NCBI RefSeq assembly: GCF_009791395.1
Contig: NZ_WSZK01000015.1
Span: 372,001 to 436,000 of the forward strand
DNA length: 64,000 bases
Reading direction: 5' to 3'
DNA from: Halomarina oriensis
GTDB taxonomy: Archaea; Halobacteriota; Halobacteria; Halobacteriales; Haloarculaceae
Position 1 is the stretch's first letter. Every line of letters starts with the position of its first letter. The translations under genes were made by a program, and so were the position numbers. Below are positions 25,676 through 40,642 of the stretch, piece by piece. The notes below the pieces were generated by a model. That model was not told where the DNA came from, searched no databases, and worked only from the letters and a program-made list of their open reading frames with translations.

Positions 25676-28600
25676 TCAGTTCGACTCCGCTTCCTCAGCA
25701 CAGGGCAGAGACCTGTGTGGACACCACCTGCAGTGCTCACCAGGGGTGTACTCCTCGAACGAACTGGTGTCGGCCGCACGAAGCTGCTCGACGAGACGTG
25801 TCTCGGACGTCTCGACGTCCTCCGCTGTGAACGAGCGAGTCTCGACTGCCGGACCGACCTCGCCAACGTACGCGTAGCCGGCCTGTCGGATCGGCTCATC
25901 GAACAGTTCCTCACAGGCCAGCACGTAGAGTGGGAGTTGGAGATCCTCGGCCAGAGAGCGCTTTTTCGTGGTGGCTTTGTAGTCGAGAATCACCAACTCG
26001 CCGGTCGGTGATCGACAGACGGCGTCGATTACACCGGTGACGGCGAAGCCGTCGAGTTCGAGCGCGAACGCACGCTCCGCGGCGACGACCTCCCACTCGC
26101 TCGCCTCGCACTCGAAGTAGCGTTCGATGCAGTCGACCGCATCGTCGAGGGCGTGATTCAGTCCGCGTGTGGCCGCGAGTTGCGATGCGATTTCGATCCA
26201 CTCTGTAGGAGAAGCAGCACCACGAATAGCAGCTCGCTCAGCAGTCTCGTGAAAGAGGACACCGATCTCACGTACCGACGGAGCGTCGCTGCTCGTTCCT
26301 CCAGTAGTACGCTCTCCAGCATCGACACCCGCCGGATCGTCGAACGCCCAGAGCACGTGGTCGAGGTAGTGCTTTCGCTCACACCTCGAGAGCGTGTCCA
26401 ACGACGTGTAGCTGTGTCGTCGACGGAGCCTCGGTGTGTCGAGTGGGTCGAGCGCCTCGACCGGAATACCGACCGTCGTCGGATCGACGGCGTCGAGATC
26501 ACCGTCGAGCAGTGAACGCGCCAACGAGAGGACGCGCTTGCGGGCAGGACCTCGTGCCAACGCGTCTCCGTCGTGGGTTCCAGTCACGACACCAGTCGTG
26601 TCCATCGGTGTTGCGAGCGTCTCCGTTCCGTCGTCGAAGTCCGCCGGGAGACAGCTCTGAATCAGCTCCCAGATCGGGAACTCGACACCACCGACTTCCC
26701 ACGGGATCGATTCCGGCAACCCCGCTTCGACGACCGAGTCCGGAAGGTTCTCGCCGTCGTCTTCGGTCCTCTCATCACTCCCACCGACGAGTATCGACAG
26801 CTCTTCGGCACGAGTGAGTGCCACGTGGAACACGCGACGCGTCTCGTGCTCGTCTCGGCGGGCGAAGTCGGTGTCGAGAACCGACCCACCAGAGAGGACG
26901 TGTTCGAGCGTATCGTACGGTCGCTCGTTGGGCGACCACTCGTCGGCGGTCAACTGTGGAAGAACGACGACCGGGAAGTCGAGCCCTTTGCTCTTGTGGA
27001 TGGTCATGACGTCGACCGCCGAGTCTTCGGTGTCGGGTTGGTCCTCGGACGAAGCCGCGGCACTCTCCGTGATCTCCCCGTGCAGTCGAAGGAAGTCGAC
27101 GAACTCCCGAGAGAGTTCGGGCTCGATCGCCCCATCGTCGAACGACGCGATCAGCTCGTCTAACTGGGCGAGGTCACGACGCTCTTGCTCGGACAGGAAC
27201 CACTCGACCGAGGTAACGTCCTTCAACTCGCGGTACAGCCGCGTCAGCGAGTACGTATCACGGAGATCGAGGAGTTGCGTGAAGTCGTCGCGAGCGGCCT
27301 CGACGCGCTCGGGCTCACGGAACCGCTCGGGCGGCGTCGACTGTAGCTCTTCGAGCAGTGGTTCGTCAGTCGCGTTCAGTCGAGCGACGTCGGTCTCGTG
27401 GAGCCGATATCGCATCGTCAGCACGCGATTGAGGCTGATCTCGTCAGTCGGGTCGGCCAGTGCTTTCAGGTACGCCAGCACCGTCCGGACGCCAATCGAC
27501 TCGTCTGCGAGATCGCCAGCGAGTTCGTACGGGATACCAGCCCGCTCTAGCGAGCGAACGATGGGTTGGGCGTGTGTGTTCTTCCGGACGAGGATCGCCA
27601 CGTCACCCGCGCTGTACTCTTCGTCGGCCAACTCCGACTCACCGGCCAGCAGTCGTGTGATCGCGTTCGTGATCTGCTGTGCTTCGTCCGCGGGCTCTTC
27701 TGCCCTATCGATCGTCACGACTCCCGTCGTCGCCTCGCGTTTCTCGCCGATCGCCTCCAGTTCCTTCGTCGACCCTCGTGAGTCGAGGTGTTCGAGTGCC
27801 TCGTTGGCGAGGTCGAGGATCGGCTGGCGAGAGCGGAAGTTCTCCTCCAACGTCTCGTCGGTGAGATCATCGAAGGCCGCAGAGAGCCGTGAGCCGATGT
27901 TCTCGATGTTCGCCCCACGCCACTCGTAGATCGCCTGGTCGTCGTCGCCGACGACGAACAACCGGTCTTCGGTCACGAACTGCTGGACGAGTTCGAACTG
28001 GACGGTGTCGGTGTCCTGGTACTCGTCACAGAACACGTAGTCCCACTGGCTGGTGATCCACTCTCGGACCGCCTCGTCTTCGAGGAGCGCGTTCGCTCGA
28101 ACGACGAGATCGTCGAAGTCCAGCAGTGTCTCCTCACTCAGCCGACGCTCGTAGGCTGCGTACCCCGCTGTGAGATCAGACGCCACCTGGCAGTTGCCGA
28201 TGAACGACTGGAGCTTCCCAGTCAGCGTGAACCCTACCTTGGGGATGCCCTTCGGTGGGCTGGAGTACGCCCCGAACAGGTATGCAGGAAGCTTGAACGC
28301 CGGTTCGAGATCGCCGTCGACGATCTCGTCTGCCCGGTCGGTCAGCAGCGTGGCGAGCCGGTCACACGTCGCCTCGAGTTCAGAACAGAACGACCGTACG
28401 TCTGCAGCCACTCCATCGGTCTCCAGTGACTCACGCTCCGTCGCGATCGCTTGCTTGAGCGCATCGAGCCCATCGCACATCTCGTCAAGGCGGTCGTGTG
28501 TGGGCCTGCGCCAGCTGACTTTGACGTGCTCTTCTGCCGCTGCTTCGATCCGTTCGATCAGTTCATCGAGCGCCAGCAGATCTGCCGGTTCGCCCAGATA

Positions 28601-29149
28601 CGCCTCCAGTTCCTCGGGGAAGATACCGGAGCGCTTCATCGCTGGGATGAACCTTAGCAGTCGCTTGGCTGCCCCTTTCCCGTAGCCGTCGGGGTCGAAC
28701 ACCTCCGGTTTGGTGAACCGGTAGGGCATCTCGTCGAGGACGTCGTAGACGATCGCGAACTGGTCGGCCTCGGTCGCAATATCGTAGCGAGGATCGAGGT
28801 CAGCGTGGTAGGCGAACTCCTGGAGTAGCTCGTGGCAGATGGCGTGGTACGTGTACGCCTCGATATCGTGGCCCCGTGACCCGAGCTTCTCGACCAGTTT
28901 CTCGCGCATCGAGTCGGCGGCGTTGTTGGTGAACGTCAACGCCAAAATCCGGTCGGGAGGGGTGCCGTCTTCAACGAGGCGTTCGATCTTCCGCACCATC
29001 GTGAACGTCTTTCCAGTGCCAGCACCGGCGAGCACCCGCATGGGGTAGTCATCAGAGTCAATGATCCTCTGCTGGTCTGGTCGGGGAGTGTTCTCCTCCG
29101 ATTCCTCGTCGGACGTGGCCGCCTCGACGGACACGTCTCGGTCACTCAT
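25676..29149 (-). CDS. UvrD/AddA-like ATP-dependent DNA helicase with C-terminal PD-(D/E)XK Fe-S nuclease
   Basis: A 1157-residue protein. SF1A helicase motifs are PRPDQQRIID (Q motif), Walker A AGAGTGKT (41-48), ALTFTNNAADSMREKL (Ia), FCDEYQDTD (Walker B, about 375), VGDDDQAIYEWRGA (III), VMTIHKSKGLDFPVVVLP (V) and RRVFHVALTRAEELSILVG (VI). The C-terminal about 270 residues hold a RecB-like nuclease (GVIDAVC...LVILDYKATTK). An iron-sulfur-type Cys set is seen: one Cys in LSRCERKHYLD, then C-x2-C-x6-C in CRWCPHRSLPC at the end. Third gene of an overlapping three-gene operon, so likely the motor of an AddAB-like end-resection complex. G+C is lower than in the flanks. Confidence 0.88.
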   Translation of the reverse strand: MSDRDVSVEAATSDEESEENTPRPDQQRIIDSDDYPMRVLAGAGTGKTFTMVRKIERLVEDGTPPDRILALTFTNNAADSMREKLVEKLGSRGHDIEAYTYHAICHELLQEFAYHADLDPRYDIATEADQFAIVYDVLDEMPYRFTKPEVFDPDGYGKGAAKRLLRFIPAMKRSGIFPEELEAYLGEPADLLALDELIERIEAAAEEHVKVSWRRPTHDRLDEMCDGLDALKQAIATERESLETDGVAADVRSFCSELEATCDRLATLLTDRADEIVDGDLEPAFKLPAYLFGAYSSPPKGIPKVGFTLTGKLQSFIGNCQVASDLTAGYAAYERRLSEETLLDFDDLVVRANALLEDEAVREWITSQWDYVFCDEYQDTDTVQFELVQQFVTEDRLFVVGDDDQAIYEWRGANIENIGSRLSAAFDDLTDETLEENFRSRQPILDLANEALEHLDSRGSTKELEAIGEKREATTGVVTIDRAEEPADEAQQITNAITRLLAGESELADEEYSAGDVAILVRKNTHAQPIVRSLERAGIPYELAGDLADESIGVRTVLAYLKALADPTDEISLNRVLTMRYRLHETDVARLNATDEPLLEELQSTPPERFREPERVEAARDDFTQLLDLRDTYSLTRLYRELKDVTSVEWFLSEQERRDLAQLDELIASFDDGAIEPELSREFVDFLRLHGEITESAAASSEDQPDTEDSAVDVMTIHKSKGLDFPVVVLPQLTADEWSPNERPYDTLEHVLSGGSVLDTDFARRDEHETRRVFHVALTRAEELSILVGGSDERTEDDGENLPDSVVEAGLPESIPWEVGGVEFPIWELIQSCLPADFDDGTETLATPMDTTGVVTGTHDGDALARGPARKRVLSLARSLLDGDLDAVDPTTVGIPVEALDPLDTPRLRRRHSYTSLDTLSRCERKHYLDHVLWAFDDPAGVDAGERTTGGTSSDAPSVREIGVLFHETAERAAIRGAASPTEWIEIASQLAATRGLNHALDDAVDCIERYFECEASEWEVVAAERAFALELDGFAVTGVIDAVCRSPTGELVILDYKATTKKRSLAEDLQLPLYVLACEELFDEPIRQAGYAYVGEVGPAVETRSFTAEDVETSETRLVEQLRAADTSSFEEYTPGEHCRWCPHRSLPCAEEAESN

Positions 29150-30065
29150 CGACGCTCACCTCCCCAGCGAGGTAGTCGGGACACATCGCCTGGAACGTGC
29201 AGTCGTCACAGGCGTGTTCTTTCTGGAGTGCGACGGAGTCGGGGACGTAGTCACCTGCCTCGATGGCGTCGTAGTACTCCCCGATGAGCTCCCAGATCTC
29301 GTCGTAACAAGTATCGTAAATCTGTCCGACATCCCGCCCTCTGCCACGGACAGAAACCTGAACGCCATCGACTCCCGGTTTCGTCTCAGTGTCGGAGAGC
29401 AAACCGTAGTACGTGAACTCGACATCCATTCCTGGCTCGTACTCGGGATGCTCTTTGACGCCCTCGACGTACGTGGCCGCCTGAAACGTACTCTTGACCC
29501 GCTGAGGGCTGTGATCATCACCGGCGTGGTGAGCCACGACAGCGTCCTTCGAATAATCGGAGATGATCCCTTTGAGATTGCTCTTGTAGTCGATGACTCT
29601 GATCCCCTCAGCCGTTTTCACGATGTTGTCGGCACGCCCACGCAACGCGACACCTTCTCGCTGGCACTCGAGCCACTCTTCGGTAGCGATCGAGTTTCGA
29701 GCGTGGTCGAGGCCCACACCATCGAAGTAGTCCTCGATCGTCGCGACACACAACAGGTAGTCGTATCGGTAGTGAGCATCGGAGGCGTACTCGCTCCTGT
29801 CCGTTTCCTCGTCCCACCGAGCGTCGATGGCGTCACTCGCCATCGTTCGGATGTCCTCGTCAGTAATCGCAGCCCCCTCACGAACTGTCTCGCAGGTATC
29901 TTCGATCGCACCGTGGAGCGCCAAGCCCCGGTCCAAGTAGCGTCGCGTCTCGTCGGGGGAACCGACCTTCCAGACCTTCTCGTACTGGTAGCGCCGTGGG
30001 CAGTCGGCGTAGACGCCCAATCGCGACGGTGAGACCGTGAAGAGGTCGTCATCGCTCTTACTCAC
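29142..30065 (-). CDS. Stand-alone PD-(D/E)XK nuclease with Fe-S cluster motif (Cas4/AddB-C-terminal-like)
   Basis: A 307-residue protein. SPSRLGVYADCPRRYQYEKVW (first Cys) and HACDDCTFQAMCPDYL (C-x2-C-x5-C) frame the nuclease core LRGRADNIVKTAEGIRVIDYKSN, with Asp and D-Y-K as catalytic residues. This is the arrangement in Cas4, AddB and related RecB-family nucleases. The GTG at 30065 was preferred (VSKSDDDLF...); it overlaps the end of the upstream gene by 8 bp, and a longer frame runs to 30122. It overlaps the helicase gene by 8 bp. Here the nuclease half normally fused to AddB is a separate protein. Confidence 0.82.
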   Translation of the reverse strand: MSKSDDDLFTVSPSRLGVYADCPRRYQYEKVWKVGSPDETRRYLDRGLALHGAIEDTCETVREGAAITDEDIRTMASDAIDARWDEETDRSEYASDAHYRYDYLLCVATIEDYFDGVGLDHARNSIATEEWLECQREGVALRGRADNIVKTAEGIRVIDYKSNLKGIISDYSKDAVVAHHAGDDHSPQRVKSTFQAATYVEGVKEHPEYEPGMDVEFTYYGLLSDTETKPGVDGVQVSVRGRGRDVGQIYDTCYDEIWELIGEYYDAIEAGDYVPDSVALQKEHACDDCTFQAMCPDYLAGEVSVDE

Positions 30066-32190
30066 GACGGACCACCCCCTCAGCGAAGTCAGTGCGAGAC
30101 TCGATTGCTCGCTGGAGACCATCAGGCGGGTCGTTCGCCAGTAGCGATTGGATCACACCGAACTCGCGTTCGATCTCGTCGATATCGATCGGATCGTCGG
30201 TCACACCCGCGAGTCGGATCTCTTCGAGTGCGTCCTCGGTTCTCGTCAGTGCGAACGAAACCGCCTCACCGTGGGTATGAATCTCGTCGCTCTCTCGTCG
30301 GTCCAGTTCACCGAACTCCTCTTCGACAGCGGTGAGGAATCTCGAAGGCTGGAGTCGACTGCCTGTTCCGCCCTCGGTCTCGGTGTACGTACCGAAGTAG
30401 AGACGGTCGGAGGCAGTGCGTGCACCGACCGCGAGCATCCGCCTGCTCAGTTCGGCGTAGTACGCCTTGAGCGGGCGTCGACCGTCCGAACCAGCAGTCT
30501 CGAACGTCTCGTGAACGTCTTCCGGGCTTGGTGCCGTGAAGGCGGGGTAGCCGGGGAGTTCTTCCAGGTGCGGTGTGGGAAAGAGCGCGTTGAACTGCGG
30601 GTCTGCAGGGAACTCTTCGTCGACGACGTCGAGGAGGAACACCGCCTCGCGGGAGAGGTCCTTCGCTACTCGGACGGCGTCGACGAGGACACCGTCTTCC
30701 GGAACCTCCAGTTCGGTCGCTATCTTGTCGGAGGTCGTATGCTGGAACTCCCGTTCGAGTGCCCGTGCGAACACGCTCCACGAGGCGTCGACGAGCGGTG
30801 ATTCGTCGACGAACCGTGCCAGCTGGAGGACGTCGCTGACGTGGCGGAACTGTGTTTTCGCATCGACCGACGAGTCGAGTTCGGCGATTCGCTGTTTGAG
30901 GCCGGATTCGAGCAGCCACGTCTGGAGCGCGGCTTCGAGGCCATCAGCGTCTCCAGCATGTCGGATCCGCTCGAGGAGTTCGTCGCCGATCGTCGGGCTT
31001 CGTGCAGCGAGGACGCTCCGTGCACGAGTCGGACTCCACTCGCGTTCCTCGTCGTCACTGCACCAACAGACCACCGCGTAGAGTTCCCGCGCTGTGGGAT
31101 CGTGGATTAGCCCTCCGACCGTCGCAGAGGCTGTCGGAATCCCTGCCGTTCTGAGGATTCGTAGTGCATCTCCGACGGGTGCGTTGGAGTCTCGAAGGAC
31201 GACCGCACACTCGCTGTACGGAACGCCCTCGACCCGGTGCAGACGCTCGATCTCCTCGGCGACGGTTCGCACCTGCGCAGTGAACGTCTCTTCGTCGATG
31301 ACGGTCAGCGAACCGCCCTCGGCCGTGGTCGGGGAGTGATCGCTCGCGAGAAACGATGCACAAGCGGCGGGGAGCGGGACGTCTCCGTTACGATCGGACG
31401 GCTGCTGTGTCTCGTGTTCCGCTACACTCGTGAGTTCGGTCGCGTAGTCGTCGATAGTACCCGGTTCGTTCCACGTTCGCTGAATCGCACTGTTCCGTTC
31501 GGCGATGCAGACGAGATCGACGCCCTCGGTCAGTCGAGCGAGATACGCTCGGTCGATCGGAGTGAACTCCTCGAACTCCAAGACCAGTACGGCATCGACC
31601 CCTCGTCGAACTCGCGCTCGACGATCGGCGTCAGCGAGCGCTACTGCAGCGTTCGAGAGGACCGCCGACGGGTCGAGGAGGCCGTTCTCACCGAGCCACT
31701 CGTGAAAGCCATCGTTGAACGCCGTGAGCTCGGCCAGTGCGGGCTCGTCGGTCTCGATCTCGCCACCCTGCCAGGTCGCCTCAGCGACGAAGCGTCCCAC
31801 GTCAGACTCGAACGACTCCTGTCGGGCGGCCCGTTGTAGATAGGGCGTCTCCCACTCGTGCTCTGCCAGATACTGGCCCAGTAGCAGGCCCTGCTCGCTG
31901 GGCGTGAGGAGTCGCGGCGGGGACGGAAGCTCTGCGATCGTGTCGCGGGCGTGAGCCGAGAGTCCCCGGATCCGGGGCTGTTCGATACCACCGATCGACT
32001 CACCAACTGCGTTGGCGATCTCATCGACTCCGGTGGGGAACCGCTTGAGAACGAGAACGTTCGACTGCCCGTGTTCTTCGATCAATCCCCGATACGCCGG
32101 GACTACGTGAGCGGCAAGTCCATCGCCAAGGAACGGAACGAGACGGAGGTTCCCCCGAAGCGACGGCCGATCGTCGAGGCCGTAGGTCAT
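30058..32190 (-). CDS. AddB/RecC-like inactivated helicase subunit
   Basis: A 710-residue protein of a diverged SF1-helicase fold without a Walker A lysine: the N-terminus reads LRLVPFLGDGLAAHVVPAYRG where AddB has a G-x-G-K-T loop. Helicase-like pieces follow: VDAVLVLEFEEFTPIDRAYLARL (Walker B position), VPYSECAVVLRDSNAPVGDALRILRTAGIP, and the late DAVRVAKDLSREAVFLLDVVDEEFP (motif V position, cf. AddB/RecC). It has no C-terminal nuclease or Cys cluster; these are supplied by the next gene. As first gene of the operon it is the probable DNA-scanning partner of the helicase-nuclease. The AddB-like call rests on pattern and context and is not certain. Confidence 0.68.
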   Translation of the reverse strand: MTYGLDDRPSLRGNLRLVPFLGDGLAAHVVPAYRGLIEEHGQSNVLVLKRFPTGVDEIANAVGESIGGIEQPRIRGLSAHARDTIAELPSPPRLLTPSEQGLLLGQYLAEHEWETPYLQRAARQESFESDVGRFVAEATWQGGEIETDEPALAELTAFNDGFHEWLGENGLLDPSAVLSNAAVALADADRRARVRRGVDAVLVLEFEEFTPIDRAYLARLTEGVDLVCIAERNSAIQRTWNEPGTIDDYATELTSVAEHETQQPSDRNGDVPLPAACASFLASDHSPTTAEGGSLTVIDEETFTAQVRTVAEEIERLHRVEGVPYSECAVVLRDSNAPVGDALRILRTAGIPTASATVGGLIHDPTARELYAVVCWCSDDEEREWSPTRARSVLAARSPTIGDELLERIRHAGDADGLEAALQTWLLESGLKQRIAELDSSVDAKTQFRHVSDVLQLARFVDESPLVDASWSVFARALEREFQHTTSDKIATELEVPEDGVLVDAVRVAKDLSREAVFLLDVVDEEFPADPQFNALFPTPHLEELPGYPAFTAPSPEDVHETFETAGSDGRRPLKAYYAELSRRMLAVGARTASDRLYFGTYTETEGGTGSRLQPSRFLTAVEEEFGELDRRESDEIHTHGEAVSFALTRTEDALEEIRLAGVTDDPIDIDEIEREFGVIQSLLANDPPDGLQRAIESRTDFAEGVVRRE

Positions 32191-32253
32191 TCTGTCAAGT
32201 TGTGTGATCGGACGATATGTAGGTACTGGGTGGCAGGGTTGTCATGGCCTAGT

Positions 32254-32264
32254 GAGTATTTACC
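32254..32264 (+). promoter_or_regulatory. Probable TATA box for the NucS-like nuclease gene
   Basis: GAGTATTTACC is centred about 29 bp before the ATG at 32288, fitting a leaderless or near-leaderless transcript and supporting that start over earlier in-frame codons. Confidence 0.5.
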
Positions 32265-32287
32265 CCAGAGTCCAGTCAGTAGATCGG

Positions 32288-33463
32288 ATGAACGACGCGA
32301 TCTATCTCAGGCAGGGCGAGCGACTCGTCGAAATGACCGAGCAGCCATACGAGTACGAGCGAGTGCTCCAGGATCGATTAGCCAACTATCCCCGGTTACT
32401 CGCTGGGGGCCAGATGTCTGACGAAGGGATCGATCGATGGGCACTGATCGGCCGCGAGAAATCTGTCCCGGACAAAGAAGGCGGTAACGAGCGCTGGTCT
32501 GCGGACCACCTCTTCGTCGATCAGAACGGTGTCCCCACCATCGTCGAAGTGAAACGAAGCGAGAACACGGAGATTCGACGCCGAGTCGTGGGACAGATGT
32601 TCGACTACGTCGCCCACGCGAGTATCTACTGGGACGCGGAGACGCTCAGTGAACGATTCATCGAGACGTGCGAGGAACGCGGCATAGACCCCGACGAGAC
32701 ACTCACAGAGGTAGTTGGTGATAGCTCGGTAGACGATTTCTGGGACACGGTCGAGAAGAACCTCCGCTCGAAGAAGATTCGGCTCGTGTTCGTCGCCGAC
32801 GACGTCCCGAGCGAACTGAAGCGTGTCGTCGAGTTCCTGAACGAAGCGATGCAGGACGTCGAAGTGCTGGCCATCGAGGTCGTGCAGTACACGAGTGATG
32901 GAGAATCCGTGTTCGTCCCTCGACTGCACGGCCAAACCGAGGAAGCGAAGGCGTCGACTTCGTCGACGACGACTCGAAGTGGGAGTGAGTACGTCCAGAC
33001 AGAGGCAGAGTTGTACGAGGACTTAGAGCAGAAGGTGGCGAACGGAGCGATCACTCGTGAAGTAGCCGATTCGTTCGAGCATCTCTATGAGTTCTCGAAG
33101 AGTCTCGGGGACGAAGTCGACATCGGCGGAGCGAAGAACGCGAACTTCGGGCTTCGCGTGAGCGCTCACCAGGGGGATCACAGCGGTCGACCGAGCGTCT
33201 TCACAGCGAACGTCAGTGGCCATCTCAAGGTGTGGACGGCGAAGATGCCCCTCGACGGTGATAATCCAGCAGCGTCGCCAGTCCCCTGGAATCCGAGTGC
33301 GTACGAAGAGTACGAGGAAGCCTTCGGTTCACTGGATGGGGTACCCGCTGGCGAGGCGAAGGCGCCATTCGAGATACTGGCCCGTGACGACAACCTCGAA
33401 GAGTTCAAGCGAATCGTCACCGAGTTCGTTGCACACTGCCGAGAAGCTGCTGATCAGCAGTAG
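32288..33463 (+). CDS. PD-(D/E)XK (NucS/DUF91-like) nuclease-domain protein
   Basis: A 391-residue protein starting MNDAIYLRQGERLVEMTEQPYEYE. Residues about 25-110 look like a NucS/DUF91-type nuclease: VLQDRLANYPRLLAGG, then the core DHLFVDQNGVPTIVEVKRSENTEIRRRVVGQMFDYVAHAS (Asp plus E-V-K). Residues about 145-200 (KNLRSKKIRLVFVADDVPSELKRVVEFLNEAM) are a second alpha/beta unit. The C-terminal 150 residues (ANFGLRVSAH...LKVWTAKM) are unrecognised. It is divergent from the AddB-like gene, 97 bp apart, and G+C is low as in its neighbours. A role in DNA repair or defence is inferred. Confidence 0.72.
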   Translation: MNDAIYLRQGERLVEMTEQPYEYERVLQDRLANYPRLLAGGQMSDEGIDRWALIGREKSVPDKEGGNERWSADHLFVDQNGVPTIVEVKRSENTEIRRRVVGQMFDYVAHASIYWDAETLSERFIETCEERGIDPDETLTEVVGDSSVDDFWDTVEKNLRSKKIRLVFVADDVPSELKRVVEFLNEAMQDVEVLAIEVVQYTSDGESVFVPRLHGQTEEAKASTSSTTTRSGSEYVQTEAELYEDLEQKVANGAITREVADSFEHLYEFSKSLGDEVDIGGAKNANFGLRVSAHQGDHSGRPSVFTANVSGHLKVWTAKMPLDGDNPAASPVPWNPSAYEEYEEAFGSLDGVPAGEAKAPFEILARDDNLEEFKRIVTEFVAHCREAADQQ

Positions 33464-33492: not shown

Positions 33493-34407
33493 CTACGTAT
33501 GGATGCGGTCTGTCGCGAGCGTAGTCGCCAGGCTGGTGAGTTCTTGACGACACGTGAGTTCTTCGAGCCACCGCTCGGGAAGCGTATCTGCACCGAACCG
33601 AGCCCCAGCGACGGCTCCTGCGACTGCTCCGATCGTATCGGCGTCACCGCCCATGTTCACTGCATCCACGATGGCTTCCTCGGCCGATTCGGCAGTCAGT
33701 CCGTGGTACAGTCCTACCTGAAGTGTCGTCACCACGTAGCCCGTGTTCTCGAGATCTTCTGGACCAAGGTCGGTCGATATTCGCTCTAATGCACCGACGA
33801 GTTCGGCAGGGATTTGATCGACGTCTGCGAGCGCCAACGCTAACGGGTTGTTCACTCCGTCGAGTAGCCCAACGATAGTCGTGTTCAATATCGCACAGCC
33901 AGCCGTACACCGTGGGTCGGCGTGCGTGATCTGAGAGGACTGGCGGCTGATCCGTTCGAGGGCCTCCAAGTCGTCGCCGAAGGCGATCGCGTGTGGCGCA
34001 CACCGCATCACGCTCCCGTTGCCCGCGTTTCCACCTTCGTGACTCTGCTCCCAGACACGCTGGCCTGCTTCGTCCCACGGCGTGTCCTGCTTGAGCAACC
34101 GAATCGACTCGGCGGTCATTCCTCCGATATCGAACGGCCCACTGTCGTACCACTCGACGAACCGTCGAGCAATGTCTTCGGGGTCGAACTGACCCCGCTC
34201 TACGAGACTCCGAGCGACACACAGCGCCATCTCGGTGTCGTCGGTGATCGTTCCCGCTGGCTGGCCGTGCGTCCCGTAACCGAGCATCTCCGTCACGATG
34301 CCGTGCTCGCGTTCGATCGACGCCGGGGACATGAACTCGATCGGTCGCCCGAGAGCGTCGCCACAGGCGAGACCCAGTAGTGTCCCAGCCGCTTTGTCGT
34401 CACTCAT
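33493..34407 (-). CDS. ADP-ribosylglycohydrolase (DraG-like)
   Basis: The 304-residue enzyme cleaves ADP-ribose from proteins or nucleic acids. The binuclear metal site is complete: LACGDALGRPIEF, GTITDDTEMALCVARSL (T-D-D-T/S), EGGNAGNGSVMRCAPHAIAF and the late AVNMGGDADTIGAVAGAVAGARFG. The ATG at 34407 starts the family domain (MSDDKAAGTLLGLACGDALG), and a minus-strand TATA-like GCTTACT about 27 bp upstream supports it. It lies inside the low-G+C island between nuclease genes. Its substrate (an ADP-ribosylated target, possibly a toxin product) is unknown, and no ADP-ribosyltransferase is visible nearby. Confidence 0.9.
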   Translation of the reverse strand: MSDDKAAGTLLGLACGDALGRPIEFMSPASIEREHGIVTEMLGYGTHGQPAGTITDDTEMALCVARSLVERGQFDPEDIARRFVEWYDSGPFDIGGMTAESIRLLKQDTPWDEAGQRVWEQSHEGGNAGNGSVMRCAPHAIAFGDDLEALERISRQSSQITHADPRCTAGCAILNTTIVGLLDGVNNPLALALADVDQIPAELVGALERISTDLGPEDLENTGYVVTTLQVGLYHGLTAESAEEAIVDAVNMGGDADTIGAVAGAVAGARFGADTLPERWLEELTCRQELTSLATTLATDRIHT

Positions 34408-34544
34408 GTCCGAGAAGATAACGACACCCGAGTAAGCTCTTGTCCCGACACGATAGAGACGAGGACGCCAAGGAAGGACGAGCACGACCCAGAAGCCCGT
34501 GCCACCCATACGCTTACCACACTCGGTAAAGACAGTCAGCTGTA

Positions 34545-35018
34545 ATGAAACGGCGATGGGTGACCGCATCCAGTACGACGTTCGAGGCGATGGTCAACCC
34601 GATCGCCGCCGCCTGTACCGAGGGGTACGTTCCAGACGAGTACCACATCCTCGTCACGCCGGGGTCGGCCGAGGACGTCGAGCGAGCGATTCCACTGATC
34701 GAGACGACAGTCGCGGAGTACGGCGGCGACCTCGACGTCACCCGCCAGACGCTCGACGACGAGATGGACTTTGCCACCATCGTCGAGTACTATCAGGGTG
34801 CCATCCAGACGACGACAGCGCGTGACGATACAGTCGCCGTCGACGTCACCCCCGGTCGGAAGTTCATGTCCGCGATCGCCTTCCGCGCTGGCTTGCAGTA
34901 CGACGCCACACACGTCTTCTACCTCTTTCTCGACTCGTCGGATTTCTACGGGCAACCCTACGACGCGATTCCACGACCGGCCATCTCGCTCGTCGACTTC
35001 ACGGAGGTGGTCGGGTGA
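34545..35018 (+). CDS. CARF-like (CRISPR-associated Rossmann fold) sensor-domain protein
   Basis: The 157-residue protein is a single Rossmann-like domain. It opens KRRWVTASSTTFEAMVNPIAAAC (beta1 and ligand loop), then DEYHILVTPGSAEDVERAIPLIETTVAEYG (beta2-alpha2), and the most telling part DDTVAVDVTPGRKFMSAIAFRAGLQYDATHVFYLFL (about 96-130). The D-V-T-P-G-R-K-x-M-S set (D100-S109) parallels the D/N-x-T-G-G-T-K-x-M-S motif of Csx1/Card1-type CARF domains, which bind cyclic oligoadenylates. There is no effector domain in the protein itself; the next gene, overlapping by 4 bp (GTGA), encodes a PIN-like nuclease. Domain call is by motif only; ligand unknown. Confidence 0.6.
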   Translation: MKRRWVTASSTTFEAMVNPIAAACTEGYVPDEYHILVTPGSAEDVERAIPLIETTVAEYGGDLDVTRQTLDDEMDFATIVEYYQGAIQTTTARDDTVAVDVTPGRKFMSAIAFRAGLQYDATHVFYLFLDSSDFYGQPYDAIPRPAISLVDFTEVVG

Positions 35019-36055
35019 AGCTCCAACGTCGGCACTTCACGACGCTCCTCAACGCGTTCTACGACGACGGTATCACCACCATCCCGGTCGAGCATCCTTG
35101 CGAAGACGTCGGTGAACTCGTCCGGTTCGAACTCGGCGACTACCGAGGAAGTACGGTTCGATTCACCTGTGGACCGCTCTCGTACGAGGACCGACGAGAC
35201 GACCTCGAGCGCGAGTACGACGAGCAGATCGTCGCCGATCTCCCCGGTCCCGAGCACTACATGCGGGCGCTCGTCGGCGGCGGTGTCGCACCGCTCGAAA
35301 ACCACGACGAGGTCGAGACGTTCGTCCGCCGCTACGGCTATCCCGACCTCGAAGCGGGTCATCGTCCAGTGTTCGCGGGGATCGACACCAACCTCCTCAT
35401 GTGGCGACCGGAGTCACTCCTCTCACTCGATCCCTCGAACGGCGACGAGCGTGGTCGGTCGCCCGTGAACGGATATGCGCTCTCGGCGGGCGTGAAGGAG
35501 GAACTCGACTTCCACTTTCGACACGGCGAGTCGCGTCGGTTGGTGGACGCCTTCGGACCAGAGTTCGACCGACTGAAGGGCCAACCGACGAGCGACAACA
35601 GACAGGGGTTGCTCGGACTGTACGCCTACCGCCAGTTCATGGCCGAGCGTAACGTCGACGTCGTCCCCGGCGAGAAGGGCGACAGAGCGATCGTCGATAG
35701 CTATCACGACTACCACGAGGAGGACCGCAACCGCGTCGTCCTGTTCAGCAACGACCACGGCTTCGTCGACCGCGCTCACGAGTGTGGACTCCTCGCCCAA
35801 CACGTCTCGTTCCCGGTCGACACGCGTCGGAAAGCGACGGTGTCGTGGCGAGACATCGAGGAGACGCTCTACCTGCTCACCGTCGTCTTCGGCGTCCTCG
35901 TCCTCCCGAAGGTCACGCTCTATGGCGCGTGGGAGGGCAAGGACGGCCGGGACTGGCAGACCGAGACGGTCGATGTCGACTGTCGGAGTCCGAAGTACCA
36001 GAGAGAGTTGAAGCGGCGAGAGCGGATCGTCACTGCGTTCGACGCCGCGATGTAG
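35015..36055 (+). CDS. PIN-domain ribonuclease-like protein coupled to the CARF-like gene
   Basis: A 346-residue protein from a GTG start overlapping the previous stop. The N-terminal about 115 residues are unrecognised. From about 118 a PIN-like fold appears: FAGIDTNLLMW (D124, the first PIN acidic residue), a long helical insert, GEKGDRAIVDSYHDY (E220, D223, D228) and RVVLFSNDHGFVDRAHECGL (D247, D252). These acidic residues are in the order expected for a metal-dependent PIN ribonuclease active site. The C-terminus has a hydrophobic stretch (ETLYLLTVVFGVLVLPKVTLYGAW) and a basic tail. Together with the CARF-like partner it may form a ligand-gated RNase. Confidence 0.6.
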   Translation: MKLQRRHFTTLLNAFYDDGITTIPVEHPCEDVGELVRFELGDYRGSTVRFTCGPLSYEDRRDDLEREYDEQIVADLPGPEHYMRALVGGGVAPLENHDEVETFVRRYGYPDLEAGHRPVFAGIDTNLLMWRPESLLSLDPSNGDERGRSPVNGYALSAGVKEELDFHFRHGESRRLVDAFGPEFDRLKGQPTSDNRQGLLGLYAYRQFMAERNVDVVPGEKGDRAIVDSYHDYHEEDRNRVVLFSNDHGFVDRAHECGLLAQHVSFPVDTRRKATVSWRDIEETLYLLTVVFGVLVLPKVTLYGAWEGKDGRDWQTETVDVDCRSPKYQRELKRRERIVTAFDAAM

Positions 36056-37097: not shown

Positions 37098-37480
37098 AGT
37101 GGACGGGCACTCGCAACCGGGAGAAGTCACTTCCGAACGACCGATGGTTCGTGGACTTCGGGGATAAATCCGGGAGTCCGCCTCCGGGGCTTCCGGAGCG
37201 GTCTCTGTAGCAGCGTCCCGAGCGGTAGAAGCTCGGAACCACGGGTGGAGTCAGCGGCCGGGAAACTGTCGATCCAACGCGGTGAGAGGCTTCGGATCGA
37301 CACCGCGCGAGGGAAGTAGACGAACCACGGTTTCCGAGGGTTCGTCTCTGAAAAGTCGGATGAGAATACTGAGACCGGGTGCGAGAATCGCCCGTGGTCG
37401 CTCGCTGCGGTCGCTGCGGTCGCTCCCAGATTCGATTTTCTGTGGACACCCGTCGCTCACGAACGTGTTCACGACAGGAG
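37098..37480. other. Gene-free junction between the island and tRNA-His
   Basis: About 380 bp without a believable ORF. It holds a hairpin (arms CCG-C-CTCCGG and CCGGAGCGG, 37178-37201), the partial tRNA-His copy at 37373-37390, and a 9-bp tandem repeat TCGCTGCGG x2 (37402-37419) followed by a partial third unit. It looks like the attachment end of a former integrated element. Confidence 0.5.
37373..37390. repeat. Partial copy of the tRNA-His 3' end (attachment-site-like direct repeat)
   Basis: 17 of 18 bases here match 37481-37498, the last 18 bases of the tRNA-His gene read on the plus strand; the shared 16-base run is CCGGGTGCGAGAATCG. The copy lies 108 bp downstream of the tRNA 3' end, on the side of the low-G+C island. 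Tyrosine-recombinase elements leave such a repeat when they integrate into a tRNA 3' end. Confidence 0.6.
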
Positions 37481-37553
37481 GTCCGGGTGCGAGAATCGAA
37501 CCCGCGTCTCAGCCTCCACAAGGCTGAAGGATGACCACTACCCCAACCCGGAC
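37481..37553 (-). tRNA. tRNA-His (anticodon GTG)
   Basis: Read on the minus strand, 73 nt fold into a full cloverleaf. The acceptor stem is GTCCGGGT paired with ACCCGGAC, 8 bp because the extra G-1 of tRNA-His is encoded and pairs with C73. The anticodon arm is CAGCC-TTGTGGA-GGCTG, giving anticodon GTG (His). The T arm is GCGGG-TTCGATT-CTCGC. CCA is not encoded. It stands alone between the low-G+C island (its 3' side) and the CHAT region. Confidence 0.96.
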
Positions 37554-38536: not shown

Positions 38537-40642
38537 TCATTCGATGAGGTCGGCAGAGACGGACTCGCTCCAAGAAAGCGTCCCATTGACCGTTACTGGC
38601 ACTCGTTCACTCATCGTCAGCAGTTCATCGAGTTCATCCGTCGAGGCGGTCAAGGTGGTGAGGTGCCCCGACCCCAGATGCCGTGTGGTATTGTCTGCGA
38701 GATACGGTGTCACCATCGAGCCGACCGGCCACTGTGACGTTGGATAGGCGAAGTATCCCACCTCGAACGAGTCGGGGCCGGTCCGTTCGATATCGAGTCG
38801 GTTTGCTGCCCCGCTTTTCGTGCTCGTGAGACGCGCGTTACCCGACCCGACGATGACGTACTGCCGCCCCGTGATGGTCTCTCGACCGATGACGGCCAAC
38901 GCCGCGGCCAGCGAGAACCCGCTGTTCAGCAATCGAGCGATCTGTAACCCGACCATCGTTGCGGGGTCGTTCGCCACCTCCTCCAGTGTCACGACGCCAC
39001 CGGTCGCCCCCGCATCGACGAGCGCACGGCCCTGAACGTACGACTGGCACGCGTTGAGGACGAACGCTCGCCCACCGAACGAGTCGAGCGTCCGAACGTC
39101 GAGATGCCCGTCCGCGCACGCCAGTCCGTCCGACGTCGCGTGACCGATGTAGTGGAGCAGGTCGTGGTTCGCTTCGAGCAGCGCACGCGTCTCCGCGACG
39201 GTCTGCTCCTCGTGAATCGTGACGTCCATCTCGACGAGTTCGCGGACGCCGTACAGTTCGCCCACGGAACGCTCTTCGGTCATCTCGGGGGCGTTGGCGA
39301 TGACCTGCACCCGTGTCGGCCCGTTGCCGACGGCGTCGAGTTGGCGGAGGGAGGCGTCGGCGGTCGGAATCGACGCACCGACCGGGACACCGTCGCCGAG
39401 CCAGGCGTGTTCCAGACTGTCGACCGGGGGAGCGCTCACCCGTCGGGGGACGAGGTCCTCGTCCGGCCGGAACGGCTGGACGTTCGTCGGCGGACCCGCA
39501 CCGTCGGCCCGGTAGAAATCCGCGACGCTGTTGCCGATTTCCGTGGCGATGCTAGCTGGCTCGCTCGGAGTGGTCGTGATGGGTCGGACGTGTGCGAGGT
39601 CGTGCGCCGCGAACGGGAGGTACGGTGCGTGCTGTGGGTCCGGCGCGACGTCGGCGGTCAGCTTCCACGTCGGGACGAGGTCGGCGACGTCCTCCCACGG
39701 CACTGCGAGGGCGGCGTCGACCTGCTCGGGGAGCGAGCGGTCGTACAGCGCCGGGAAGTCGACGTCGACACGTCGTTCGAGCACCCGCCGCTCGTGGAGG
39801 TCGACCGGGAACAGCCCTTCCGTCCGTGTGACGCAGTCGAACAGGAACAGCCGTTCGAGCGTTCGCTGGACGCCGGTACTCATCCCGTCGGGATGCGTCA
39901 GGGCGTGCTCAGTTCCATCCGCGACTAGCGCCGGCTTCGGTCCCGGACGAACCTGTGCGTTCAGATAGTACGCCAAGGATGCGACCGAGAAGACGTGGCC
40001 GTACTCGACCGGGACCTCGATGTGGACGGGTGTGTCACGCCGCTCCAGCCCCTCGGGGGCGCTGAACGGGCCCGGTTCGACGTCGACGAGCGGCGGGCAC
40101 CCGCGCAGCGACGGCCAGGCGCGTTCGGGGGAGGTGGTCTTGAGCGCCGACCCGAAACACGAGACGGCTCGCATCAGGTCTCGGGGACGCTCGCTCGTGT
40201 GGACGGTCGCCTGCGGACGAGTGTGGAGGGACCGAAGCCCGATCTGAACGCCGCCACCCGGCAGTCGGACGATGCGGTGGCCGTCGTCGACGGTCGATTC
40301 GATCGGGCCGTCGACGCGACAGTAACACTTCACCCCGAGGGATTCGATCTGCACGAGATACTCGCCGTCGGGCATCGTGACCGCCTCGCGGTTGGTCGCC
40401 GCTTCGAGGAGTTCCCCCTCCGTCGTGCGGACGTACAGTTCACACAGTATCGGCAGAACGAGTTCGTGACACACGACGTCGACCGCCGTCTCGACCGGAA
40501 ACGCGAACCGCTCGACCGACACCGCTCGTGGCGAGACCGGTCGGTCGGTGCGGACGACGAGGTCGACGCCCTCGGCGGGGTCCGCGAGGCGAATACCAGT
40601 GGGCGTCTCGACCGCAGCGATCGAGGGGCCAGACGGTGTCAT
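38537..40642 (-). CDS. CHAT-domain (caspase-like) cysteine protease
   Basis: A 701-residue protein. The first about 430 residues are beta-rich and unrecognised. Residues about 440-620 form a CHAT peptidase: RVQVIANAPEMTEERSVGELYGVRELVEMDVTIHEEQ, the catalytic His in DLLHYIGHATSDG (about H501), the catalytic Cys in FVLNACQSYVQGRALVDAGATGGV (about C532), and the closing LARLLNSGF-type helix with YVIVGSGNARLT. The dyad is intact. CHAT proteases act as regulated, gasdermin- or partner-cleaving enzymes in several bacterial immune systems and in other signalling roles. It begins 30 bp after the DUF7504-like gene on the same strand, so they are cotranscribed. Confidence 0.82.
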   Translation of the reverse strand: MTPSGPSIAAVETPTGIRLADPAEGVDLVVRTDRPVSPRAVSVERFAFPVETAVDVVCHELVLPILCELYVRTTEGELLEAATNREAVTMPDGEYLVQIESLGVKCYCRVDGPIESTVDDGHRIVRLPGGGVQIGLRSLHTRPQATVHTSERPRDLMRAVSCFGSALKTTSPERAWPSLRGCPPLVDVEPGPFSAPEGLERRDTPVHIEVPVEYGHVFSVASLAYYLNAQVRPGPKPALVADGTEHALTHPDGMSTGVQRTLERLFLFDCVTRTEGLFPVDLHERRVLERRVDVDFPALYDRSLPEQVDAALAVPWEDVADLVPTWKLTADVAPDPQHAPYLPFAAHDLAHVRPITTTPSEPASIATEIGNSVADFYRADGAGPPTNVQPFRPDEDLVPRRVSAPPVDSLEHAWLGDGVPVGASIPTADASLRQLDAVGNGPTRVQVIANAPEMTEERSVGELYGVRELVEMDVTIHEEQTVAETRALLEANHDLLHYIGHATSDGLACADGHLDVRTLDSFGGRAFVLNACQSYVQGRALVDAGATGGVVTLEEVANDPATMVGLQIARLLNSGFSLAAALAVIGRETITGRQYVIVGSGNARLTSTKSGAANRLDIERTGPDSFEVGYFAYPTSQWPVGSMVTPYLADNTTRHLGSGHLTTLTASTDELDELLTMSERVPVTVNGTLSWSESVSADLIE

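Follow-up and report, generated by a model that had tools for sequence, protein, structure and literature searches.

In a 64,000-nucleotide stretch of the Halomarina oriensis genome (assembly GCF_009791395.1, contig NZ_WSZK01000015.1, positions 372,001 to 436,000; here called the window and numbered from its first letter), we found a pair of overlapping genes that encode a stand-alone CARF domain protein and a PIN-domain protein and that probably act as one split effector, in which a CARF sensor gates a PIN ribonuclease (RNase) for defense or dormancy in response to a messenger that does not come from Cas10. A preliminary description of this DNA had proposed a sensor-nuclease pair, and our analysis supports that reading and places both proteins in a clade already named CARF_m1; ligand gating and RNase activity are predicted properties of the pair. 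As that description had reported, the two open reading frames overlap by 4 bp, and overlapping or abutting genes are also seen in homologous CARF-PIN pairs. The features of the pair in the window are these:

34545 to 35018, + strand: stand-alone CARF domain protein, CARF_m1 clade, 157 amino acids (aa), ATG start (PADLOC, AlphaFold2, Foldseek)
35015 to 36055, + strand: PIN-domain nuclease protein, 346 aa, GTG start, with an N-terminal domain of ~115 residues (Pfam, PADLOC, AlphaFold2, Foldseek)
35015 to 35018, + strand: 4-bp GTGA overlap, containing the start of the PIN gene and the stop of the CARF gene (sequence)
34557 to 34586, + strand: CARF motif 1, W5-V-T-A-S-S-T-T-F-E14, in the loop after strand 1 (conservation, model)
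34842 to 34871, + strand: CARF motif 2, D100-V-T-P-G-R-K-F-M-S109, predicted ligand site (conservation, model)
35384 to 35386, + strand: predicted PIN catalytic residue D124 (141/141 homologues)
35501 to 35503, + strand: predicted PIN catalytic residue E163 (141/141 homologues)
35681 to 35683, + strand: predicted PIN catalytic residue D223 (140/141 homologues, the remaining one having a gap)
35753 to 35755, + strand: predicted PIN catalytic residue D247 (140/141 homologues, the remaining one having a gap)

The CARF protein matched the PADLOC profile CARF_m1--CARF (PDLC01972; E = 1.4e-53) and also the profile of the fused form, CARF_m1--CARF_PIN (PDLC01973; E = 4e-25). Its AlphaFold2 model, which like that of the PIN protein is a monomer built from an alignment of the window protein and its relatives, had a predicted local distance difference test (pLDDT) score of 96, and the top Foldseek matches of this model in the PDB were Cad1-CARF, SiRe_0806, Sso2081, and Cam1, with E-values down to 1.4e-7. 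Since the best fold matches are all CARF domains, a non-CARF Rossmann family was rejected for this protein, and the CARF-like identity that had been proposed for it withstood the structural comparison. The D-V-T-P-G-R-K-x-M-S motif that had been pointed out at residues 100 to 109 is exact, and in an alignment of 39 diverse archaeal CARFs, D100 and T102 through M108 are invariant, with W5, T7, and S109 nearly so. In the model, motif 2 comprises the loop following strand 96-100 (the fourth parallel strand) and the start of helix 106-118, motif 1 is the loop after strand 3-8, with helix 13-25 next in order, and the conserved motifs are predicted to face the usual CARF ligand side. Single-sequence PDB searches with the proteins gave chance matches only, and TAL-effector matches from one profile (A3) were false, being caused by a repeat alignment. 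Three fused or divergent haloarchaeal CARF-PIN loci (L093, L094, and L095) carry a degenerate motif, SISSGSRL, instead of DVTPGRKF, which suggests that their ligand is different or lost; the PIN part has been kept.

The assignment of the second protein as PIN type was borne out by a Pfam match to PIN_4 (9e-5) and by its predicted fold, and the protein also matched PADLOC profile PDLC01973 (3.3e-28). Its AlphaFold2 model had a pLDDT of 93, and the only PDB fold matches below 1e-3 were to SiRe_0806 (4.5e-7); the next were the PIN domains of SMG6 and EST1A, with weak E-values of 0.01 to 0.02. Among the acidic residues previously proposed for the nuclease site, D124, D223, and D247 are conserved in the 141 archaeal homologues, but D228 and D252 are not, and the conserved E163 had been overlooked; R196 is kept in all 141. 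The alignment and model point to a PIN fold in which D124, E163, D223, and D247 are the four acidic residues that bind metal, and the protein would be expected to have metal-dependent RNase activity.

The closest structural counterpart of the pair is the Sulfolobus islandicus protein SiRe_0806 (PDB 9jxw, apo; 9jxx, with cyclic tetra-adenylate [cA4]), which ranks first among the fold matches of the PIN protein and near the top for the CARF protein. Like the window pair it combines a CARF domain with a PIN domain, but it is one fused chain with cA4 as its ligand, whereas the window genes are separate and occur in a genome without Cas10; sequence similarity between SiRe_0806 and the window pair is low (PIN profile E = 0.17). 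We found no paper on SiRe_0806 in the literature searched, nor any experimental report on the CARF_m1 clade. The window genes are members of the CARF_m1 CARF and CARF_PIN families of PADLOC-DB (PDLC01971, PDLC01972, and PDLC01973), although PDLC01973 models the fused form and the window sensor and nuclease are separate, overlapping genes.

The pair is also conserved as a unit in other genomes, which the preliminary description had set as a test of its reading. In 152 archaeal loci, which are partly redundant between collections, CARF and PIN genes are adjacent on one strand in 139 and fused in 5 (examples are L094, L095, L137, and L141). An alignment-based scan of genome contigs recovered relatives, whereas a single-sequence scan gave nothing; pairing was counted from CARF loci. 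PIN is present in 60 of 62 haloarchaeal case loci; it is missing from L082, where the contig ends, and from L092, a broken copy. Thirteen pairs of related haloarchaeal loci, of which one was identical and hence uninformative, gave a ratio of nonsynonymous to synonymous substitution rates (dN/dS) of 0.02 to 0.22 for both genes, so both are under purifying selection. Twelve haloarchaeal plasmids carry the pair, and no viral source of it was found in IMG/VR. Because several haloarchaeal copies (among them L055, L060, L064, and L071) have none of the recurrent companion families described below within 10 kb, the minimal unit is the two genes. Broken copies with stop codons and truncation occur on a plasmid (L009:8001-9000) and on a contig (L092), showing that the pair is sometimes lost.

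We detected the CARF gene in 57 of 394 sampled halobacterial genomes, which represent 33 of 86 genera, and found Cas10 or RAMP genes in none of these 57 when Cas10 was searched for with model PF22335. Cas10 was present in 2 and RAMPs in 3 of the 394 genomes, all of them CARF negative. The absence of CRISPR genes that had been noted for the window extends to the whole H. oriensis assembly (99.6% complete), in which we found no Cas10, RAMP, Cas1, SMODS, or mCpol. The preliminary description had named Cas10 and a cyclase of a cyclic-oligonucleotide-based antiphage signaling system (CBASS) as genes to look for, and neither was found in this genome. CBASS or mCpol as the source of a signal was rejected for H. 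oriensis on these grounds, and CBASS was rejected as a general source since an SMODS cyclase scored above the cutoff in only 5 of 53 CARF-positive haloarchaeal genomes. A link to type I CRISPR systems was also rejected, as Cas1 showed no positive association with CARF (14 of 51 tested CARF-positive haloarchaea versus 11 of 29 CARF-negative ones, the latter being an unmatched sample of listed genomes). Because the defining feature of a type III ancillary effector, Cas10 or a type III locus in the same genome, was tested for and not found, we do not class the pair among type III effectors; our best hypothesis is still that it functions in the same manner.

Outside the haloarchaea, some members of this family adjoin type III loci. 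Of the seven non-halophile relatives with the best scores in the phylum, six carry Cas10 at a distance of 5.3 to 5.9 kb on the same contig, and a contig end truncates the locus of the seventh; compared with 0 of 57 halobacteria, this linkage gives a Fisher p of 9e-8 for relatives picked by score after the fact. Cas10 was present in 15 of 50 tested non-halophile CARF-positive genomes, and CRISPR-like arrays lie within 10 kb of 12 of 52 non-halophile loci. Other archaeal relatives adjoin Cmr2/Cmr6, RAMPs, or Csx1, and Cmr2/Cmr6 and RAMP genes stand beside two of them (L135 and L130). In a tree made by a quick method with a midpoint root and some long branches, the haloarchaeal sequences form one clade next to the Cas10-linked archaeal ones. 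These relationships point to an evolutionary origin of the pair within type III loci, and the simplest history that tree and context suggest is that a type III effector module entered or spread in haloarchaea and in doing so lost its cyclase.

A further group was seen in methanogens and relatives without Cas10 (L190 to L222, for example L195:9903-12059), in which a CARF_m1 CARF-PIN pair with the motif D-I-T-P/S-G-R-K is followed by a conserved HAD hydrolase gene in 29 loci, with a beta-CASP/MBL RNase gene nearby in 13 and often also a Csa3-like CARF protein with a winged helix-turn-helix (wHTH) domain. This operon is distinct and apparently independent of CRISPR, and its HAD-linked sequences form a clade apart from the haloarchaeal one.

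We propose that the pair derives from an ancillary effector of type III CRISPR systems that belonged to the CARF_m1 CARF-PIN family, and that in haloarchaea this effector travels on plasmids and in defense-like islands without Cas10. The CARF proteins would dimerize, and motif 1 (residues 5 to 14) and motif 2 (residues 100 to 109) would form the pocket for a small nucleotide ligand; the ligand-bound CARF would allosterically activate the metal-dependent PIN site of its partner, which would then cleave cellular RNA and so halt growth or block an invader. In the absence of Cas10, the ligand must have another source; candidates are a synthase of the cell, a nucleotide that is damaged or comes from an invader, and RNA ends. 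Adenosine tails have been reported to activate S. islandicus Csx1 (PMC7694759), and possible ligands made without Cas10 include RNA ends, adenosine tails, and the product of a yet-to-be-found synthase. Some considerations weigh against this proposal. Complex formation, the ligand, the RNase activity, and the role in defense are what we infer; the extra N-terminal domain of the PIN protein could mediate other regulation; a Cas10 too divergent for PF22335 may escape detection, though RAMPs are absent too; and the related methanogen clade, which is found on chromosomes in linkage with HAD and beta-CASP RNase genes, looks less like a defense system.

We also asked how well other explanations account for these observations. 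The pair might behave like a toxin-antitoxin system, with CARF as a bound inhibitor that releases the PIN RNase when CARF is lost or binds its ligand. As in VapBC operons, a small upstream gene overlaps the PIN gene by 4 bp, the spread is mobile and plasmid borne, and PIN nearly always accompanies CARF. However, VapBC systems have a DNA-binding antitoxin and a small PIN toxin (~130 to 150 aa), whereas we found no DNA-binding antitoxin domain in the window pair, which instead has a CARF partner and a 346-aa PIN protein with an extra domain and so does not qualify as a VapBC-type system. The ligand motif of the CARF protein is, moreover, almost invariant, and the natural fusions and the fold likeness to the ligand-binding SiRe_0806 favor allosteric activation, so we consider an inhibitor role for CARF unlikely. 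We give even less credence to a housekeeping module that senses a metabolite and controls RNA decay outside of defense. The HAD and beta-CASP RNase genes beside the Cas10-less methanogen pair fit such a role, but the haloarchaeal pair is patchy in distribution, occurs on plasmids and beside nuclease and helicase islands, and lacks the HAD gene, and the HAD-linked sequences fall in the separate clade described above. The ancestry and fold of the pair point to cA4-type ligands, and two haloarchaeal genomes do have Cas10, so the pair could be a Cas10-dependent effector that awaits cyclic oligoadenylate (cOA) from a type III system that the cell gains in trans or that an incoming element carries. 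With Cas10 and RAMPs in none of the CARF-positive halobacterial genomes, Cas1 missing from 37 of the 51 tested, and a dN/dS that implies continuous use, this seems quite improbable. That the pair is a nonfunctional relic of a lost type III locus, as the loss of Cas10 and a few broken copies (L009 and L092) might suggest, was rejected as extremely improbable, since it is contradicted by the low dN/dS of both genes and by catalytic residues that are kept in nearly all copies.

The preferred reading, a split CARF-PIN effector, can also be set against other known CARF systems. Csx1/Csm6 (CARF-HEPN) and Card1/Can2 (CARF-PD-(D/E)XK) likewise use a CARF sensor to control a nuclease and have a related ligand motif; unlike them, the window pair has a PIN domain and split genes and lacks a type III locus. 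Crn1 ring nucleases (Sso2081 and Sis0811) are stand-alone CARFs like the window CARF, and such ring nucleases were among its profile and fold matches, but the window CARF is near-obligately paired with a PIN nuclease, in a genome where we found no cOA producer. RtcR (CARF-AAA-HTH) is a CARF protein outside CRISPR that has been proposed to sense RNA 2',3'-cyclic phosphate ends (PMC4012209); it is a transcription activator, in contrast to the sensor-nuclease pair described here.

The gene pair lies in a region that had been described as a tRNA-adjacent island, and this description agrees with what we found: a tRNA-His gene (37480 to 37552, - strand) is 1.4 kb from the pair, and G+C content is 58 to 65% across the segment from 25 to 39 kb of the window versus 67 to 71% on both flanks. 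Because its G+C content is below that of its surroundings, this segment is consistent with an acquired island. At 37375 to 37390, ~90 to 105 bp past the tRNA gene, there is a 16-bp repeat of part of the tRNA-His 3' half, possibly an attachment-site scar. The neighbors of the pair in this segment include the following:

33493 to 34413, - strand: ADP-ribosylglycohydrolase (ARH/DRAG-like), divergent neighbor (Pfam PF03747, 1.9e-78)
25676 to 29149, - strand: UvrD-like helicase with a C-terminal PD-(D/E)XK domain (AddA-like; Pfam)
29142 to 30122, - strand: PD-(D/E)XK nuclease of an AddAB-like set (PF12705, 3.3e-23)
30058 to 32190, - strand: AddB-like protein of the AddAB-like set, 710 aa (weak UvrD_C match, recurrent three-gene order)

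We compared 62 haloarchaeal CARF case loci with 40 control regions taken from these genomes, mostly from the same replicons. ADP-ribosylglycohydrolase genes occurred in 24 of 62 CARF loci versus 0 of 40 controls, the AddA-like UvrD/PD-(D/E)XK helicase in 30 of 62 versus 2 of 40, and a set of VWA, HEAT-repeat, and AAA_14-DUF4143 genes in 17 to 21 of 62 versus 0 of 40; the p-values of this enrichment overstate the evidence because related loci are not independent observations, but the companions nonetheless recur in several clades. The AddAB-like three-gene order recurs in five loci (L012, L047, L057, L089, and L090). On haloarchaeal plasmids, the VWA/HEAT-repeat/AAA_14-DUF4143 set lies upstream of ARH and CARF-PIN (L005:291-6064 and many other loci), and on some plasmids the genes run VWA-HEAT-ARH-CARF-PIN, ARH and CARF being only 3 bp apart. 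The ARH gene of the window is divergent from the CARF gene across a 131-bp gap, and because many copies of the pair lack ARH, we regard it as an optional partner. In the literature searched, no paper linked CARF and ADP-ribosylglycohydrolase beyond passing co-mention. Between the helicase set and ARH, the window encodes a 419-aa protein (32204 to 33463, + strand) that matches PADLOC candidate defense models PDC-S11 (1e-10), and just past the tRNA-His gene it encodes a 701-aa protein with a CHAT domain, a caspase-like protease (38537 to 40642, - strand).

Elsewhere in the H. oriensis genome (L224, G000:C24:86001-105900), a Csa3/CARF3 wHTH regulator is encoded at C24:95258, in an island with DpdA-like and BrxD-like genes; DpdA acts in 7-deazaguanine DNA modification. 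The regulator is a second CARF receptor in a genome without Cas10, and in one other locus (L004), Csa3 with similar neighbors is directly upstream of the CARF-PIN pair. A tentative extension of our proposal, one that we put forward as possible but doubtful, is that haloarchaea run CARF messenger signaling without Cas10, in which a non-CRISPR synthase or an infection-derived nucleotide would activate the split CARF-PIN RNase and perhaps a Csa3-type regulator too, and the often adjacent ARH might process a signal or modification that contains ADP-ribose, in the same circuit.

Membership in this family is not new, since PADLOC already has CARF_m1 in both stand-alone and PIN-fused form, and a 2014 paper noted CARF-PIN architectures (PMC4012209). 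Relative to the literature searched, the analysis adds that the split pair is conserved as a unit of two genes, that in the sampled haloarchaea it is completely separated from Cas10 and still under selection, that it probably descends from type III loci, and that certain companions recur beside it. Some homologues are annotated by NCBI as "CRISPR-associated ring nuclease" (L005, L007, and L010), a name that is doubtful for these CARFs because such genomes in the scanned set lack Cas10, and our finding warns against naming such genes in this way. The module is small and intact and is present in haloarchaeal genera that serve as laboratory organisms, such as Haloferax. CARF sensors are almost automatically taken as receivers of cOA made by Cas10; a pair that is under selection in 57 of 394 halobacterial genomes, none of them with Cas10, indicates that either CARF has another natural ligand or an unrecognized synthase exists.
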